Assembly (NCBI RefSeq): GCF_016907715.1
Contig: NZ_JAFBCM010000001.1
Span: forward strand, 6,014,001-6,078,000
Direction: 5' to 3'
Length of the DNA stretch: 64,000 bases
From: Tenggerimyces flavus
GTDB taxonomy: Bacteria > Actinomycetota > Actinomycetes > Propionibacteriales > Actinopolymorphaceae
The position numbers were made by a program, and so were the translations under genes. Position 1 is the stretch's first letter, and every line of letters begins with the position of its first letter. The notes beneath the pieces were generated by a model. It did not search any database and was not told the DNA's origin. It saw only the letters and a program-made list of their open reading frames with translations. Of the stretch, positions 1,164-7,357 are shown in pieces.

Positions 1164-2003
1164 TTAGTTCCCTTCGTACGTCACGGCACTGGTGTCCCAG
1201 ACGACGTCCGGGTCGGGGACCGGGATCGAGCTGATGAGCAGCTTCGAGTAGGAGTGCTGCGGGTCGTCGATGACCCGCTGCGTGTCACCGCGTTCGACGA
1301 TCTCGCCGCGGTACAGGATGCAGATGTCGTCGCCGATCTGGTACGCGGTGCTGAGGTCGTGAGTGATGTAGAGGAACGAGATCGCGTGCTCGTCGCGGAG
1401 CCTCAGCATGATGTCGAGGATCATCGCGCGGAGGCTCGCGTCGACCATCGAGACGGGCTCGTCGGCGACGATGAGCCTTGGCTTGAGCAGGTAGGCGCGG
1501 GCGACCATCATGCGTTGCCGCTGGCCGCCGGACAGCTGGTGCGGGTGCTTGTCGAGCACCTCGTCGCCGCGCATGCCGACGACGCTGAGCGCGTCCTCGA
1601 TCAGGTCGCGCGCGGCATTGTCGTTGCTGGCAAGGCGGAACCGCTTGATCGCGACGTCGAAGATGTGCCGGATCTTGTAGAACGGGTTGTAGACGCCGAA
1701 CGGGTCCTGGAAGACCGCCTGCACCTCGCGCCGGTACTCCAACCGCTGGTCCTTCGGCAGCCGCTGGATGTCCTGCCCGCGATAGCGCACGGTGCCGTCG
1801 GTGAGCTTGGTGAACCCGAGGATCGTGTCCGCCAGCGTCGTCTTCCCGCTACCGCTCTCGCCCGCGATCGTGGTGATCGTGGCCGGCGAGCCGGAGAGCA
1901 CGAGGTCCACGTCGTCGAGCGCCTTCGTAGACTCCTTGCCCTTCTTGTAGATCTTGGTCGCACCCGACACCTCGAGCAACGGCGTCCCATTGGACTCAGC
2001 CAC
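1164..2003 (-). CDS. ABC importer ATP-binding subunit, DppF/OppF type
   Basis: The protein has 279 residues if it starts at the GTG at 2003. It shows Walker A GESGSGKT at about 48-55, signature LSGGQRQR and Walker B LIVADEP, in the arrangement of the peptide/oligosaccharide family-5 importers. I prefer this GTG because GGAGG lies 8 bases upstream. An in-frame GTG at 2021 would add six residues. The start and its ribosome site are the same sequence as the end of the sister ATPase gene (stop at 2426), which suggests the two genes once overlapped at this junction and were later pushed apart by the repeat array between them. It energises uptake at the inner face of the membrane. Confidence 0.88.
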   Translation of the reverse strand: MAESNGTPLLEVSGATKIYKKGKESTKALDDVDLVLSGSPATITTIAGESGSGKTTLADTILGFTKLTDGTVRYRGQDIQRLPKDQRLEYRREVQAVFQDPFGVYNPFYKIRHIFDVAIKRFRLASNDNAARDLIEDALSVVGMRGDEVLDKHPHQLSGGQRQRMMVARAYLLKPRLIVADEPVSMVDASLRAMILDIMLRLRDEHAISFLYITHDLSTAYQIGDDICILYRGEIVERGDTQRVIDDPQHSYSKLLISSIPVPDPDVVWDTSAVTYEGN

Positions 2004-2025
2004 GGCGGGCCACCTCCCCACCCAA

Positions 2026-2416
2026 GCGAGTTGTTGGACAGATGTCGCCTTCTAGACGGACATCTGTCCAACAAGTCCGGTCGGCAACTGTCCAACAGGT
2101 CGACAGAGGCTCAGCCACGGCGGGCCACCTCCTCGATGCGGTCCTCGTCCGACACCGCGACGAAGTGGCAGGGCGAGCGGACCTGCTGGCCGACACGATG
2201 GCAGCGGCACGCCGGCGAGTTGTTGGACAGATATCGCCCTCTAGCCCGAGATCTGTCCAACAACTCCGGTCGGCAACTGTCCAACAGGTCACTCGTCCGA
2301 CGACCCGCGAGCTCGCGATCGCAGTTGCAGCGGCACGCCGGCGAGTTGTTGGACAGATATCGCCCTCTAGCCCGAGATCTGTCCAACAAGTCCGGTCGGC
2401 AACTGTCCAACAGGTC
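2026..2416. repeat. Three-copy array of 76-bp palindromic repeats
   Basis: Three near-identical 76-base units lie at 2026-2101, 2215-2290 and 2341-2416. Each starts GCGAGTTGTTGGACAGAT, contains the inverted partner ATCTGTCCAACAA about 20 bases later, and ends AACTGTCCAACAGGTC. Copies 2 and 3 differ at one position and share about 15 further bases on their left (from 2201 and 2327). Copy 1 is more diverged in the centre. The stretch 2004-2425 holds no gene I can support; open frames across it are artefacts of the repeats. In RNA each unit would fold into a stem-loop between the two ATPase cistrons. Confidence 0.85.
2112..2178 (-). pseudogene. Duplicated 3-prime tail of the upstream ABC ATPase gene
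   Basis: Bases 2112-2178 repeat the last 67 bases of the neighbouring ATPase gene (2426-2492) with a single mismatch. The 17 bases beside them (GACAGAGGC and the repeat end) are also shared with the true gene end. The copy carries the same stop and the same GGAGG-like motif but no upstream coding sequence. It is therefore a by-product of the duplication that built the repeat array rather than a gene. It implies that a segment of about 150 bases (repeat unit plus gene tail) was copied as a block. Confidence 0.75.
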
Positions 2417-2425
2417 GACAGAGGC

Positions 2426-3367
2426 TCAGCCACGGCGGGCCACCTCCTCGATGCGGTCCTCGTCCGACACCGCGACGAAGTGGCCGGGCGAGACCTCTTC
2501 CATCTCTGGTGACGGTCGCGGCGTACGGAGATCCGGCGTACGGACCACGTTCACCACCAGGGGCTTGCGCTCCTTGATCGACGGGATCGACGCGATCAGG
2601 TGCCGCGTGTACTCGTGCCGCGGGTTGCGGAACAGCTCCCGTACGGGCGCGATCTCCACGATGTTCCCCGCGTACATCACCGCGATCCGGTCCACCAGCT
2701 GCGCCTGCAGAGCCATGTCGTGCCCGATCAGGATCATCGAGCTGTTCAGCTTCGCCTTCACGTCCAACAACGTCTGGGCCACCGCCCGCTGTACGACGAC
2801 GTCCAACGCCGAGGTCGGCTCGTCGGCGATGATCAACGCGGGCGACAGGGCGATCGACATCGCGATGCACACCCGCTGCTTCATCCCGCCGGACAGCTCG
2901 TGCGGATACAGACTCGCCACGCGGCCGGGCAGATTCACCAGCGCCAGCAGCTCCAACACCCGCGACCGGATGGTGGCGCGCGACTGCTTGCCCTCGTGCG
3001 TCTCGATCGCGTCCGCGAACTGCTCGACGATCCGCGCCACCGGGTTCAGCGAGTTCATCGAGCCCTGCGGGATCAGCGACATCTCGGTCCAGCGCTTGCG
3101 CCGGAGCGAGGGCTCGTCCAGGGCCAGCACGTCCTCGCCGTTCAGCAGAACGGAACCGCCCACGATCCGTCCCGGCGGCGACGTCAGCCGGAGTACGGCC
3201 ATCGCCGCGGTCGACTTGCCCGAGCCCGACTCCCCCACCAGGCCGAGCGTCTCGCCGCGCGCGACCGAGAAGGTCACCCCGTTCACCGCGATCACGTCGC
3301 CACCCTGCGTGCGGTAGTGCACGCGCAGGTCGCGAACGTCCAGGACCGGACCGGCCGGCGAGGTCAT
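2426..3367 (-). CDS. ABC importer ATP-binding subunit, DppD/OppD type
   Basis: The 313-residue ATPase has Walker A GESGSGKS at about 45-52, signature LSGGMKQR and Walker B LIIADEP. The C-terminal section of about 60 residues is typical of the DppD family and ends in VARRG. I start it at the ATG at 3367, which overlaps the stop of the permease gene by 4 bases (ATGA), so translation is probably coupled. A much longer frame runs upstream through the permease genes, but it reads against them and is a shadow. The 3-prime end is duplicated downstream (2112-2178). With the second ATPase it forms the motor of the family-5 importer. Confidence 0.9.
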   Translation of the reverse strand: MTSPAGPVLDVRDLRVHYRTQGGDVIAVNGVTFSVARGETLGLVGESGSGKSTAAMAVLRLTSPPGRIVGGSVLLNGEDVLALDEPSLRRKRWTEMSLIPQGSMNSLNPVARIVEQFADAIETHEGKQSRATIRSRVLELLALVNLPGRVASLYPHELSGGMKQRVCIAMSIALSPALIIADEPTSALDVVVQRAVAQTLLDVKAKLNSSMILIGHDMALQAQLVDRIAVMYAGNIVEIAPVRELFRNPRHEYTRHLIASIPSIKERKPLVVNVVRTPDLRTPRPSPEMEEVSPGHFVAVSDEDRIEEVARRG

Positions 3368-4257
3368 GCCTTCGCTCCTCGAAGCCGCGGGTTCGCGATC
3401 TCGTCCAGCCCGATCGCGATCAGGAACAGCCCGATGAAGATCACCATCAGCACCAACGTCGGCAGTCCCCACCACCACCACATCCCACGCAGGATCGCCG
3501 AGCCCTGGATCGCGTTCGACACCGTCATGCCCAACGTCGGAACGCGCTGCGGACCAAGCCCGAGCGCCTCCAGCCCGACCGCCGCGAGGATGCCGCCCGA
3601 AGCCGAGCCGATGAACGCCGCCGCGAGGTACGGCAGCAGGTTCGGCATCATCTCGCGGAACATGATGTTCGGCGTCGACAGCGCGGACAGCCGCGCCATC
3701 CGTACGTAGCCCATCTCGCGCATCGACAGCACCTGCGCGCGAATCACGCGCGTCGGTCCTGCCCACGCGAACAGGGCGACGATGAGCGCCATCGTGAAGA
3801 CGCTCATCTCCCGTACGTACGCCGACACCACGATCAGGATCGCCAACGACGGAATCGTCAATGCCGTATCGGAGATCGTCCGGATCACCGCGTCGACCGG
3901 ACCGCCGAGATAGCCGGCCGCGAAGCCGAGCATGATCCCGATCACCATGCTCGTCACGCCGACGACCAGCCCGACCTGCAACGTGGTCGGACCACCGGAG
4001 ATCAGCAGCGCGAGCATGTCGCGCCCGCTGTTCTCGGTGCCGAGGGGATGCCCCGGCGAGCCGGGCGCGAGGTTCAGCGGCGAGCTCGCCGCCCGTGCGA
4101 GCTTGGTGTCCCAGAAGAGCCGCCCGAGCAGCGTGAACAGGAGGACAGCCAAGATCATCGCGCCGCCGAAGACGAGCTTGCGGTTGAGCCAGGTCCGTCG
4201 CGACCGCGGACTCGGTGCGTCCTCGGCCTCTACCTGGGTGACGGTCATGACATCCAT
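3364..4257 (-). CDS. ABC importer permease, DppC/OppC type
   Basis: The 297-residue membrane protein has a first transmembrane helix at about residues 28-48, a periplasmic loop and five further helices. The binding-protein-dependent transport (EAA-type) region lies around the stretch RVIRAQVLSMREMGYV. GAGGAGG stands just before the ATG at 4257. It overlaps the following ATPase gene by 4 bases and follows the other permease after 3 bases. Together the two permeases form the channel of the importer. Length and topology match DppC-family proteins. Substrate cannot be read from the sequence; the neighbouring mannanase suggests oligosaccharides. Confidence 0.9.
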   Translation of the reverse strand: MDVMTVTQVEAEDAPSPRSRRTWLNRKLVFGGAMILAVLLFTLLGRLFWDTKLARAASSPLNLAPGSPGHPLGTENSGRDMLALLISGGPTTLQVGLVVGVTSMVIGIMLGFAAGYLGGPVDAVIRTISDTALTIPSLAILIVVSAYVREMSVFTMALIVALFAWAGPTRVIRAQVLSMREMGYVRMARLSALSTPNIMFREMMPNLLPYLAAAFIGSASGGILAAVGLEALGLGPQRVPTLGMTVSNAIQGSAILRGMWWWWGLPTLVLMVIFIGLFLIAIGLDEIANPRLRGAKA

Positions 4258-4260
4258 CGA

Positions 4261-5271
4261 CTACCTCCTCTCGTACGAGATCCGGGGATCCAGCAGCGGA
4301 TAGACCAGGTCGAGAATCAGGACCGCGGTCACCGTGGTCAGGATCAGGATGAACACGATCCCCTGGATCACGGTGAAGTCGGAGTTCGTGATGGCCTGGT
4401 ACAGCAGCGCGCCCATGCCGGGATAGCCGAACAGGTACTCCACCAGCACGGTCCCGCCGACGACGCTGCCGAGTCCGAGCACGAGCGCCGTCACCTGCGG
4501 CAGGATCGCGTTCCGCACCTCGTACTTGAACAGCACGCGCAACGGCCGCAAGCCCTTGGCCTTCGCCAAGGTGAGGTAGTCCTCCCCCGCGACCGTGATC
4601 ATCATGCCGCGCATGCCCAAGGCCCAGAAACCCATACTGGCAAGGACGATCGACAAGGCCGGCAACGTCCCGTGCTGGACCACGCTGTTGATGTACGCGA
4701 AGCTCAGCCCCGGATCGAGGTCGGCTCGAGCCCCACCCGAGATCGGGAAGAGCCCGAGCGCGAACACGAACACGTAGATGAGGAAGATGCCGAGGATGTA
4801 GAACGGCACCGCGGTGAACGTCAGCGACACCGGCAGCAGGACCTTCAACACCCGCGGCGTCTTCACCCACGCCATCAGCGCGCCGACGATCGTCCCGAAC
4901 AGGAACGACAGGAACGTCGCGATCGCGAGCAGCCCGATCGTCCACGGCATCGCCCGGCCGATCATCTCGCTGACCTCGGTCGGGAACTGCGCGAGCGAGT
5001 AGCCGAAGTCGAGCGTGGCCAGGTTCTTCAAGTACTGCAGGTATTGCAGCATCAGCGGGTCGTCCAGGCCGAACCGCTCCCGCCACGCCGCGATCAGCTG
5101 CGCACTGCCCTCGACGCGGCCACCCTGCGCAGTGATCCGGGTGATCATCGCGGTCACCGGATCGCCGGGCGCCATGCGAGGAACGAAGAACATGATCGTG
5201 GCGCTCGCCCAGATGGTGAAGACGAACATCCAGATGCGATGGAGGACGTAGTTGACCGAGAGTCCGCGCAC
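4261..5271 (-). CDS. ABC importer permease, DppB/OppB type
   Basis: This 336-residue protein starts at a GTG at 5271 behind AGGGGGATC. It has the DppB layout: an N-terminal helix (YVLHRIWMFVFTIWASATI), a long extracytoplasmic loop containing FGLDDP, then five helices with the transport domain (SMGFWALGMRGMMITVAGED) in the second half. It lies 12 bases after the binding-protein gene and 3 bases before the second permease, so it belongs to one operon running from 7116 down to 8. It forms half of the transmembrane pore. Family call is firm. Confidence 0.9.
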   Translation of the reverse strand: MRGLSVNYVLHRIWMFVFTIWASATIMFFVPRMAPGDPVTAMITRITAQGGRVEGSAQLIAAWRERFGLDDPLMLQYLQYLKNLATLDFGYSLAQFPTEVSEMIGRAMPWTIGLLAIATFLSFLFGTIVGALMAWVKTPRVLKVLLPVSLTFTAVPFYILGIFLIYVFVFALGLFPISGGARADLDPGLSFAYINSVVQHGTLPALSIVLASMGFWALGMRGMMITVAGEDYLTLAKAKGLRPLRVLFKYEVRNAILPQVTALVLGLGSVVGGTVLVEYLFGYPGMGALLYQAITNSDFTVIQGIVFILILTTVTAVLILDLVYPLLDPRISYERR

Positions 5272-5283
5272 TGGCAGATCCCC

Positions 5284-7116
5284 CTACGCCGGCCGGAGGC
5301 TGTGGATGATCTTGTGCGCGTTGCCCCAGTCCAGAGTCGGCTGCAGGTAGTTGTCCTCGCTCGTGGCCCAACCCGTCCAGACGCTCGTGTCGAACGCGTA
5401 CAACTTGCGCGCGTGCGCGATCGGCAGGAACGGCAGCTCGCGGAGCCAGATCCGCGAAGCCTGGATGAACGGCTGGTCGATGCCCTTGTCACCCAGCGGA
5501 AGGTTGGCGAACTTGTCCACGAGCGTGGAGTACTCGGTGTTTCGCCACCGCTCGGAGTTCGCCGTCGCGGCCTTGCCGACGGCGACTACGTTGCGCTGGT
5601 GGAACAGGTCCATCGAGTTCCACGGCTCGCTCACCGAGCCACAGGCCGACCAGTCGGCGGCGGCCTCGTACTTGCCCTTGTTGAGGTTGTCGCCCCAGGT
5701 GCCGATCGCGAGCTTGCGTACGGTGGCGTTGATACCGATGCGTTGGAGCTGCTCGCCGACGACCTCCGCGTACCGCCAGATCTCGATGAAGTCCGTCGGC
5801 GCGTCGATCTGCAGCCGGAGCTCCTTGCCGTCCTTCGTCCAGAACCCCTCGCCCTGACGCTTGTAGCCCTTGCGTTCGAACGTCGCCTGCGCCTTGTCGG
5901 CGTCGTGGGTAAGGATCGGGTACTCCTCGAACAGCCCCTCGCTCTCCAGCAGCTTCACGTACTCCTGGATCGCCGGGTAGTTCGGGAACATGAACCGCGC
6001 GGGCGTGGTCGTGCCCTCGTACGCGATCTTCACGACCTCTTCGCGGTCGATCGCCTGGTTCAGCGCCCAGCGCATCTCGCGGTCGTTCCACGGAGCGACG
6101 GTGTTGTTCGGCGTGAGCAGCCGCGTACACGGGTCGGACCACGCGTACGGGGTGTCCGGCAGCCAGGAGATGATGTCCTTGTTGCGCGCCTTGAGGCTTT
6201 CGAACGCGCCCGCGGTGAGGTCGGCGATGCTGTCCAGCTGGTGATCGGAGGCCCGGGCGACCCGGATGTCCTCGGTCTCGCTGACCACCCACTCGAGCTT
6301 CTCGGGCTTGGGCAGCTCCTTGAAGTCGACCTTCGCGCCCCACCAGTCGTCGCGGCGCGCGTAGGTGAAGCGCGTCGGGCTGGCGGAGGTGAGCTTGTAG
6401 GGGCCGGTGAAGATGGGCCAGCCCTTGGCCTTGTCGTAGTTCTTGAACTTGATCGGGTCCTGCCCGTTCCAGATGTGCTCGGGCACGACCACGATGCTGC
6501 TGTGCAGCTTGACCGAGAAGTAGTCGAGCTGGAAGCGCGGGTTCGGCTTGTTCAGCGTGAACTCGACCGTGGTCGCGTCGACCTTCTTGACCGACTTCAC
6601 CCACAGCTGCATGGGCGCCGCGTTGTTCAGCTCCGCGTGCTTCTTCAGCAGGTTGATCGTGAAGACCACGTCGTCGGCGTCGTACGCCTCGCCGTCCGAC
6701 CAGGTCACGCCATCGCGGATCTTCAACGTCCACACGTCTTGCGACTCGTTCGGCGTGAACGTCTCACCCAGCCAGGGCTCGATCTCACCGGACTCGTAGT
6801 TGAGCATGAACAACGGCTCTTGGACCGCCTGGTGGAAGCCAGCGCTGTTGGTGAAGCCCGTGATGAGCGGGTTCCACAGTTCCGGTGACTGCACCCGGCC
6901 GCCGTGGTGGTCGAAGATGACCGTCTTCGACCGTTCGCTGTCCGCGCCCCCACTACCTTGTGGCCTGCTGGCGGCACCTTCACAAGCCGAGAGCATGGCC
7001 GCGACCGGACCGATGCCCATCCCCGTGACAGCAATCCCGCGCAGGAGAGTCCGGCGAGATAGTCCCCGTGTGACTTGTGCACTTCCCTGTGGGAAAGCGC
7101 CGCTGCTGTCCGTCAT
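5284..7116 (-). CDS. Family-5 solute-binding lipoprotein with Tat-type signal
   Basis: The 610-residue protein is a peptide/nickel/oligosaccharide-type (SBP_bac_5) binding protein. I start it at the ATG at 7116 because AAGGAAGG lies about 10 bases upstream; an upstream in-frame start would add 32 unlikely residues. The N-terminus has a twin arginine (SRRTLL, residues 20-25) and a lipobox ending LSAC with Cys45, so it is probably Tat-exported and lipid-anchored. The body carries typical features such as VWTLKIRDGVTWSDGEAYDADD. It is the first gene of the importer operon. Family-5 proteins bind peptides or oligosaccharides, and here the mannanase at the operon end favours sugars. Confidence 0.88.
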   Translation of the reverse strand: MTDSSGAFPQGSAQVTRGLSRRTLLRGIAVTGMGIGPVAAMLSACEGAASRPQGSGGADSERSKTVIFDHHGGRVQSPELWNPLITGFTNSAGFHQAVQEPLFMLNYESGEIEPWLGETFTPNESQDVWTLKIRDGVTWSDGEAYDADDVVFTINLLKKHAELNNAAPMQLWVKSVKKVDATTVEFTLNKPNPRFQLDYFSVKLHSSIVVVPEHIWNGQDPIKFKNYDKAKGWPIFTGPYKLTSASPTRFTYARRDDWWGAKVDFKELPKPEKLEWVVSETEDIRVARASDHQLDSIADLTAGAFESLKARNKDIISWLPDTPYAWSDPCTRLLTPNNTVAPWNDREMRWALNQAIDREEVVKIAYEGTTTPARFMFPNYPAIQEYVKLLESEGLFEEYPILTHDADKAQATFERKGYKRQGEGFWTKDGKELRLQIDAPTDFIEIWRYAEVVGEQLQRIGINATVRKLAIGTWGDNLNKGKYEAAADWSACGSVSEPWNSMDLFHQRNVVAVGKAATANSERWRNTEYSTLVDKFANLPLGDKGIDQPFIQASRIWLRELPFLPIAHARKLYAFDTSVWTGWATSEDNYLQPTLDWGNAHKIIHSLRPA

Positions 7117-7181
7117 TGGTTCCGACCTTCCTTGCAGGTACACCCGTCCGAGCAGAGTGGTGTGGAGGTCCGGTGAGGTAT

Positions 7182-7357
7182 CGATAACATAATGCTGGCT
7201 TCCAGACGGCACAAGACATCGTTGCCGTCGTGTTAACCGTCCAGACCATGGATGGCCGATTTTCTTCCGTGCATGGCGGTTTTTCGAACCTCTTCACCGC
7301 CGTTGACGAAATTCGCCTCTTGCAAGGCGACCCTCACCCGGGCATGGTGTCGTTAAC
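7182..7357. promoter_or_regulatory. Divergent promoter region with LacI-type half-site candidates
   Basis: The 264 bases between the importer operon (starts 7116) and the isomerase-like gene (starts 7381) must hold both promoters. Similar short motifs recur: CGATAACATAATG at 7182-7194, GTTAAC at 7232-7237 and CGTTAACATTGCG at 7351-7363. They resemble LacI-family half-operators, and a LacI regulator is encoded at the end of the divergent operon. No convincing -35/-10 pair could be assigned. This is inference from motif similarity only. Confidence 0.3.

Follow-up and report, generated by a model that had tools for sequence, protein, structure and literature searches.

Between the two ATPase genes of an ABC transporter gene run in Tenggerimyces flavus lies an array of palindromic repeats, at a junction where the corresponding genes of relatives overlap. 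We read this arrangement as an insertion by a REP/MITE-like palindrome just behind the upstream gene (ATPase1), followed by a local duplication of which the copy that kept a start for the downstream gene (ATPase2) was retained, and we give this reading a rough probability of 0.58. Positions refer to the window, that is, the whole 64,000-nt stretch of DNA that was analyzed, unless a genome position or a locus is named.

All genes of the run lie on the minus strand, in the order solute-binding protein (5284-7212; Pfam SBP_bac_5), two permeases (4261-5271 and 3364-4257; both BPD_transp_1), ATPase1 (2426-3367), ATPase2 (1164-2003), and a GH76 glycoside hydrolase (8-1159; PF03663, E 6.7e-36). Both ATPases match the Pfam domains ABC_tran and oligo_HPY (for ATPase2, on 1164-2021), and, judging by spacing, the genes at 3364-7212 are presumably co-transcribed in one run with ATPase1. 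The ATPase1 stop codon TGA occupies 2428-2426, whereas the GTG start of ATPase2, placed from the overlap found in relatives, occupies 2003-2001. The 422 nt that separate 2426 from 2003 hold, according to repeat search and alignment, three 76-bp units in a common orientation, each composed of a 50-bp near-palindrome and a solo half-arm: palindrome A (2343-2392) and half-arm 2394-2416 within unit 3 (2341-2416), palindrome B (2217-2266) and half-arm 2268-2290 within unit 2 (2215-2290), and palindrome C (2028-2077) and half-arm 2079-2101 within unit 1 (2026-2101). Unit 3 is identical to unit 2 at 75 of 76 bases and to unit 1 at 71 of 76. The first palindrome unit matches other sites of the genome with E values down to 5e-15, and the duplicated junction matches its other copy with an E value of 6e-45; the repeats are therefore not a product of chance.

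The original prediction had described three such units, a recurrence within the array of the last 67 bases of ATPase1, a reuse of the same sequence as the start and ribosome site of ATPase2, and a former overlap of the two genes, and all four points held up. A search of 57 genomes, that of T. flavus included, at a threshold of E<=1e-100 recovered ATPase1 orthologues (75-76% identical) in six relatives, all from one other genus of the same family, and none in 50 genomes. In all six, the end of ATPase1 shares 8 nt (ATGnCTGA) with the start of ATPase2, the junction carries neither an insertion nor an array, and the inferred overlapping ancestor is therefore right. In T. flavus, the minus-strand junction 23-mer GGAGGTGGCCCGCCGTGGCTGAG is present in three identical copies, each retaining the 8-nt overlap as GTGGCTGA. 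Copy 1 (2425-2447) comprises the ribosome site, the original ATPase2 start, and the ATPase1 stop, and overlaps the 67-base ATPase1 tail (2426-2492); copy 2 (2110-2132), within the array, carries the second tail (2111-2177), which matches the first at 66 of 67 bases; and copy 3 (1995-2017), identified by 23-mer identity and intact with its GTG, provides the ribosome site and start that now precede ATPase2.

The likeness of these segments is uneven. Aligned 100-base blocks at 2078-2177 and 2393-2492 show 1 difference, and palindrome A differs from B at 1 of 50 bases and from C at 5 of 50. Of the 9 bases beyond palindromes A and C, 3 differ; on the opposite side, the adjoining 100 bases differ at 1. 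Such an array is a mosaic, and a simple tandem duplication does not account for the pattern seen between A and C. The spacer between units 2 and 3 contains a piece resembling the ATPase1 tail, with a score equalled in 22 of 2000 shuffles, which is suggestive only of a degraded third copy. Elsewhere in the genome, the duplicated junction with its half-arm had no other strong match among the 40 of 125 candidates that were scored.

The palindrome itself proved, when the rest of the genome was searched for it, to be an independent dispersed element. Sequence, pattern, and covariance-model searches identified at least 31 distinct copies across the 8.52 Mb of the genome, including the 3 of the array; the covariance model returned 63 strand matches, and the number of distinct copies is possibly one or two above 31. 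Copies are 50 bp long, except for one degraded copy of 53, and the mean column identity across 26 aligned copies is 91%. The consensus reads GASTTGTTGGACAGATSTCGG for the arm, followed by a TCTA-containing loop and the mirror arm. In the 26 copies, 16 to 21 of the 21 arm positions are paired and the inverted-repeat ends are present, with stem positions 3/48 unpaired in 18 copies and 17/34 in 11; changes in the stem are hardly more compensated than in shuffles, 55 of 500 of which reached the observed covariation score. BLAST matches outside the array stop near the 50-bp edge. An arm match with no more than 2 mismatches in 18 bases is always accompanied by its partner arm within the same palindrome unit, so that the unit is the whole palindrome; some of the seven 3-mismatch arm matches are without a listed partner. 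At the same limit of 2 mismatches in 18 bases, the genome yielded no pair of like arms lying apart, a search that a pair with a diverged or lost partner would escape. By eye, the left flanks of loci L004 and L251 appear to share about 50 bp, and a second repeated sequence resembling GTGAAGTCACGATGCGGGA, perhaps another dispersed element, adjoins several palindromes (the left flanks of L004 and L251, as well as L012 and L250). Rfam searches with seven loci returned sub-threshold matches to microRNA precursors only, which we take as chance matches to long hairpins.

The covariance model also gave 95 matches in Actinopolymorpha alba DSM 45243 (genome G005; family Actinopolymorphaceae according to NCBI); the five other Actinopolymorpha genomes had no match at E<=0.1. 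Of the A. alba places listed, 64 were examined, and these copies divide into type A (29), type B (33), and 2 others, subfamilies that are by themselves abundant repeats. A GASTTG-like outer end, an inner TCTCGG, and a TCT-bearing loop are kept across the subfamilies, whereas the mid-stem differs. With all rows used, 10 of the 21 positions vary among the three consensus stems, and 6 of the 10 are paired in all three; with 26 rows each, 9 vary and 7 of them are paired in all three. Since the search model rewards pairing, the compensated stems of A. alba are not an unbiased test. The stem pattern of the T. flavus palindrome had no match in a scan of named genomes, and an exact pattern free of the stem matched 31 loci, all in A. 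alba, in a genome collection from which records near the T. flavus genome are perhaps omitted. In the array, each palindrome is accompanied by a half-arm, which is not a general part of the element: an arm-like piece lies within 70 bp of 1 of 24 T. flavus copies and 4 of 64 A. alba copies, compared with 1 of 240 and 12 of 637 control windows, respectively, each copy having two flanks. C3, C35, and C75 of A. alba have their half-arm-like pieces (2, 0, and 1 mismatches) on the side where the array has its half-arms.

The mobile unit in A. alba may be larger than 50 bp. Many type A copies (e.g., L146, L153, and L156) share, by eye, up to about 45 bp of sequence on either side, and one of these flanks itself looks hairpin-like. 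In other genera of the order, the matches listed were weak: 2 in G027, 5 in G028, 8 in G033, and 1 each in G032, G041, G046, G048, G049, G052, and G053. Several of them look, by eye, like one shared coding sequence, and loci L118 and L136 (both G033) carry short direct-repeat arrays beside a weakly similar palindrome.

Copies of the palindrome favor the ends of genes over their starts. With gene ends taken from a simple codon-usage gene caller, applied alike to copies and controls, 13 of 24 copies outside the array overlap or lie within 40 bp of a 3' gene end (10% of noncoding controls), and none lies within 40 bp of a called 5' end (17% of controls). Four weaker copies have neither gene end within 40 bp, which brings the totals to 13/28 and 0/28. 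In A. alba, the corresponding figures are 15/64 against 7% of controls at 3' ends and 0/64 against 5% at 5' ends. The array fits this habit, as palindrome A begins 33 nt, and its half-arm 9 nt, after the ATPase1 stop. Of the 28 copies beyond the array, one is contained entirely in a called gene (positions 1513-1562 of locus L018; genome position 4762676), where it is in frame near the C-terminus. We take the gene to belong to the GH127 family; its nearest NCBIfam model, aceric acid hydrolase, scored below the cut-off. The insert of 17 residues (51 nt) is absent from the two closest orthologues, in A. alba and G007, which are 74% identical, a gap that rests on protein alignment and is split by the aligner in G007. 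In L240, the third-closest match at 62% identity, unrelated residues occupy the loop and the 17-residue gap is missing, and homologues beyond it vary at the loop. Judged by this sequence comparison, the insert in the GH127-like gene is a case in which the palindrome has moved at least once. A further copy, at genome position 291749 (the L013/L009 pair), supplies the last codons and the stop of a gene. Together with the palindrome at 292787, 1 kb away, it flanks one 319-codon gene; as a carried transposase, this gene was rejected, its weak REase/AbiEi-like Pfam matches being below the cut-off and NCBIfam giving no match.

The original prediction had the element copying the junction as it inserted. 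Of this, the retained start and the independence of the element stood, but the copying is not a rule, with one clear and two borderline cases among 28 copies. The 250-bp flanks of 24 copies were searched for flanking repeats, and 4 copies added later were unremarkable; in all, 25 of the 28 scored within the bulk of the controls. Junction copying is therefore not a fixed part of insertion. Palindromes elsewhere that lack a junction duplication were also looked for, and most copies turned out to be of this kind, so the link between element and duplication is not general. The clear case is L026 (genome position 5045745), where a 25-bp direct repeat with one mismatch corresponds to the start of a GNAT gene and has a score found in 0.2% of 400 cross-pairs; the palindrome sits between the two copies of the GNAT start, and alignments with homologues begin at residue 2 of the downstream copy. 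Borderline flanking repeats, both with scores reached by 1.2% of cross-pairs, were seen at L021 (17 bp with one mismatch) and L012 (14 bp). The best A. alba case, C37:98431 (20 bp, one mismatch), stands at 3.5% of cross-pairs, and nearly all of the 64 copies there are unremarkable. A separate search for target duplications of 2-12 bp found the flanks of 24 copies no more alike than cross-pairs. In L026 (1380-1720), a different long palindrome (TTGAATGAAGGGCACCTTCATTC-like) lies upstream in addition to the repeated GNAT start, and by eye L016 has a similar end.

These data bear on a gene-sparing insertion, in which a long target duplication of about 15-30 bp would itself have produced the junction copies and, with them, a fresh downstream start. 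The 23-bp junction copies on both sides of the array are what such an event would leave, and the paired GNAT starts of L026, the borderline repeats of L021 and L012, and the A. alba case point the same way. However, the flanks of 25 of the 28 T. flavus copies and nearly all A. alba copies are indistinguishable from the bulk of controls, the palindrome in the GH127-like gene added 51 nt without a long flanking repeat, and, where flanking repeats do occur, their distances from the palindrome vary, reaching 206 bp. Absent duplications are weak evidence, since old ones could have decayed, and long duplications could still have accompanied a minority of insertions; as the history of this junction, we consider the explanation unlikely.

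We favor insertion followed by local duplication. The 50-bp palindrome would be a REP/MITE-like, presumably non-autonomous mobile element of two genera of one actinobacterial family, and one copy, with a half-arm beside it, would have landed just behind the ATPase1 stop, a frequent type of site. Because the start of ATPase2 overlapped this stop, the insertion would separate ATPase2 from its ribosome site. Palindromes can provoke slippage, and this one probably provoked the local duplication: slippage or unequal exchange between repeats at the new palindrome would have copied the junction along with the repeat, and conversion between units alongside these processes would be the simplest account of the mosaic. 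The copy that placed the 23-bp block of ribosome site and start before ATPase2 would then have been kept, which would make the array a relic that outlived insertion and repair rather than a regulator by design. The sequence itself does not tell in which order insertion and duplication took place; we infer the order that reads best, together with mobility as a general property of the palindrome, slippage as the cause of the duplication, and selection for the retained ATPase2 start.

A 145-codon open frame (1996-2433, minus strand) runs through the array, from the old ATPase2 GTG in junction copy 1, through copy 2 in frame, to the TGA in copy 3 that overlaps the present ATPase2 start, which gives a stop-start overlap at both ends. 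Translation of the frame, if it occurs, would carry ribosomes along the message as far as ATPase2. The frame has codon usage that is not gene-like; 2% of shuffles are open in a given frame, 3 of the 6 reading frames run open over the whole 422 nt, and copy 3 had a one-in-three chance of falling in the right frame. The open frames and the codon usage led us to reject openness as proof of selection, and on these sequence data the overlap at both ends may have arisen by chance. That a palindrome which spares genes when its insertions into tight operons are tolerated copied the overlapped junction, giving the downstream gene a start again and leaving a 145-codon bridge cistron that couples translation through the insertion, strikes us as distinctly unlikely.

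Intercistronic REP hairpins can stabilize the upstream transcript or dampen the genes downstream, and the array might by analogy be a selected regulator, stabilizing the transcript of ATPase1 or lowering the expression of ATPase2 and the GH76 gene. Single units have predicted folding energies of -40 to -46 kcal/mol, so strong hairpins are expected. The preference for 3' gene ends would suit this role, as would the share of copies in convergent gaps (6/24 in T. flavus against 14% of controls; 23/64 in A. alba against 17%). Set against it are the six relatives, which have no array at the junction, and the base pairs, which within the genome are hardly better kept than in shuffles; we regard a selected regulator as improbable. 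Neither a sigma-70-type promoter nor an intrinsic terminator (a hairpin followed by a T run) was matched at 1900-2600.

A putative binding site of a dimeric DNA-binding protein, spread by selection instead of transposition, would explain the near-constant length of 50 bp, and the C/G alternatives at fixed positions look independent between the two arms. We nevertheless hold it very improbable, given that one copy is an insert inside coding sequence, that none of 28 copies comes within 40 bp of a called gene start, and that the mid-stem differs wholesale between species. An assembly artefact, which repeated sequence within a short span might raise, is very unlikely in a genome of one 8.52-Mb contig with units that differ from one another.

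Compared with known systems, the palindrome is REP-like in the broad sense, being short, dispersed, mainly extragenic, and near 3' ends. GTAG/CGTC REPs, in the accessible part of their description, are likewise short dispersed palindromes with family-specific stems, mostly behind genes and sometimes within them, but have stems of 5-13 or 8-9 bp, compared with a 21-bp stem in 50 bp here (PMC3733652); the word actinobacteria is absent from the main text of that paper. Within the 10-nt edges of 24 T. flavus copies, GTAG, its complement, CGTC, and its complement occurred 0, 1, 0, and 2 times (1, 0, 5, and 5 in controls 200 bp away), and at the 64 A. alba copies 0, 1, 2, and 4 times (controls, 1, 2, 7, and 7). 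The Y1 transposase domain PF01797 had no match in the T. flavus genome, 9 in A. alba, 7 in G007, and 2 in G049, and we rejected a RAYT as the mover in T. flavus. With tags no commoner than in controls and a genome that lacks a Y1 transposase, the palindrome is not a GTAG/CGTC REP.

Palindromes of Actinomycetota are not new as such, since the table of RepRanger predictions, according to the available part of the report, has putative REPs in the thousands for every one of three genomes from this phylum (PMC12306157). By the same source, the default palindrome length of RepRanger is at most 32 nt, against 50 bp here, and its three genomes lie outside this family, the word Actinopolymorpha being absent from the available text (PMC12306157). 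The literature searched, mostly short of full text, yielded no description of this palindrome family, which we file as a new family of the broad REP/MITE kind. MITEs, as far as the available text of PMC10969869 describes them, are similarly dispersed, carry inverted repeats, and can form in-frame gene fusions; the present element differs in having no short target duplication (24 copies) and no distant pair of like ends that we could find. Rickettsia palindromic elements, in the same text, also insert in frame in protein genes, but they are about 150 bp long and nearly half lie in genes, compared with 50 bp and 1/28 here (PMC10969869). BIMEs, in the accessible part of PMC2817692, are clusters of palindromes with spacers, as is the array, but alternate in orientation, whereas the three units here share one orientation and have host gene sequence copied between them. 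The present case sets beside these systems a family of palindromic repeats, shared by two genera of one actinobacterial family, whose sister stems differ largely by compensated changes, and a clear before-and-after of an overlapping gene pair surviving an insertion, which together offer a testable case of small mobile repeats reshaping operons without breaking them.
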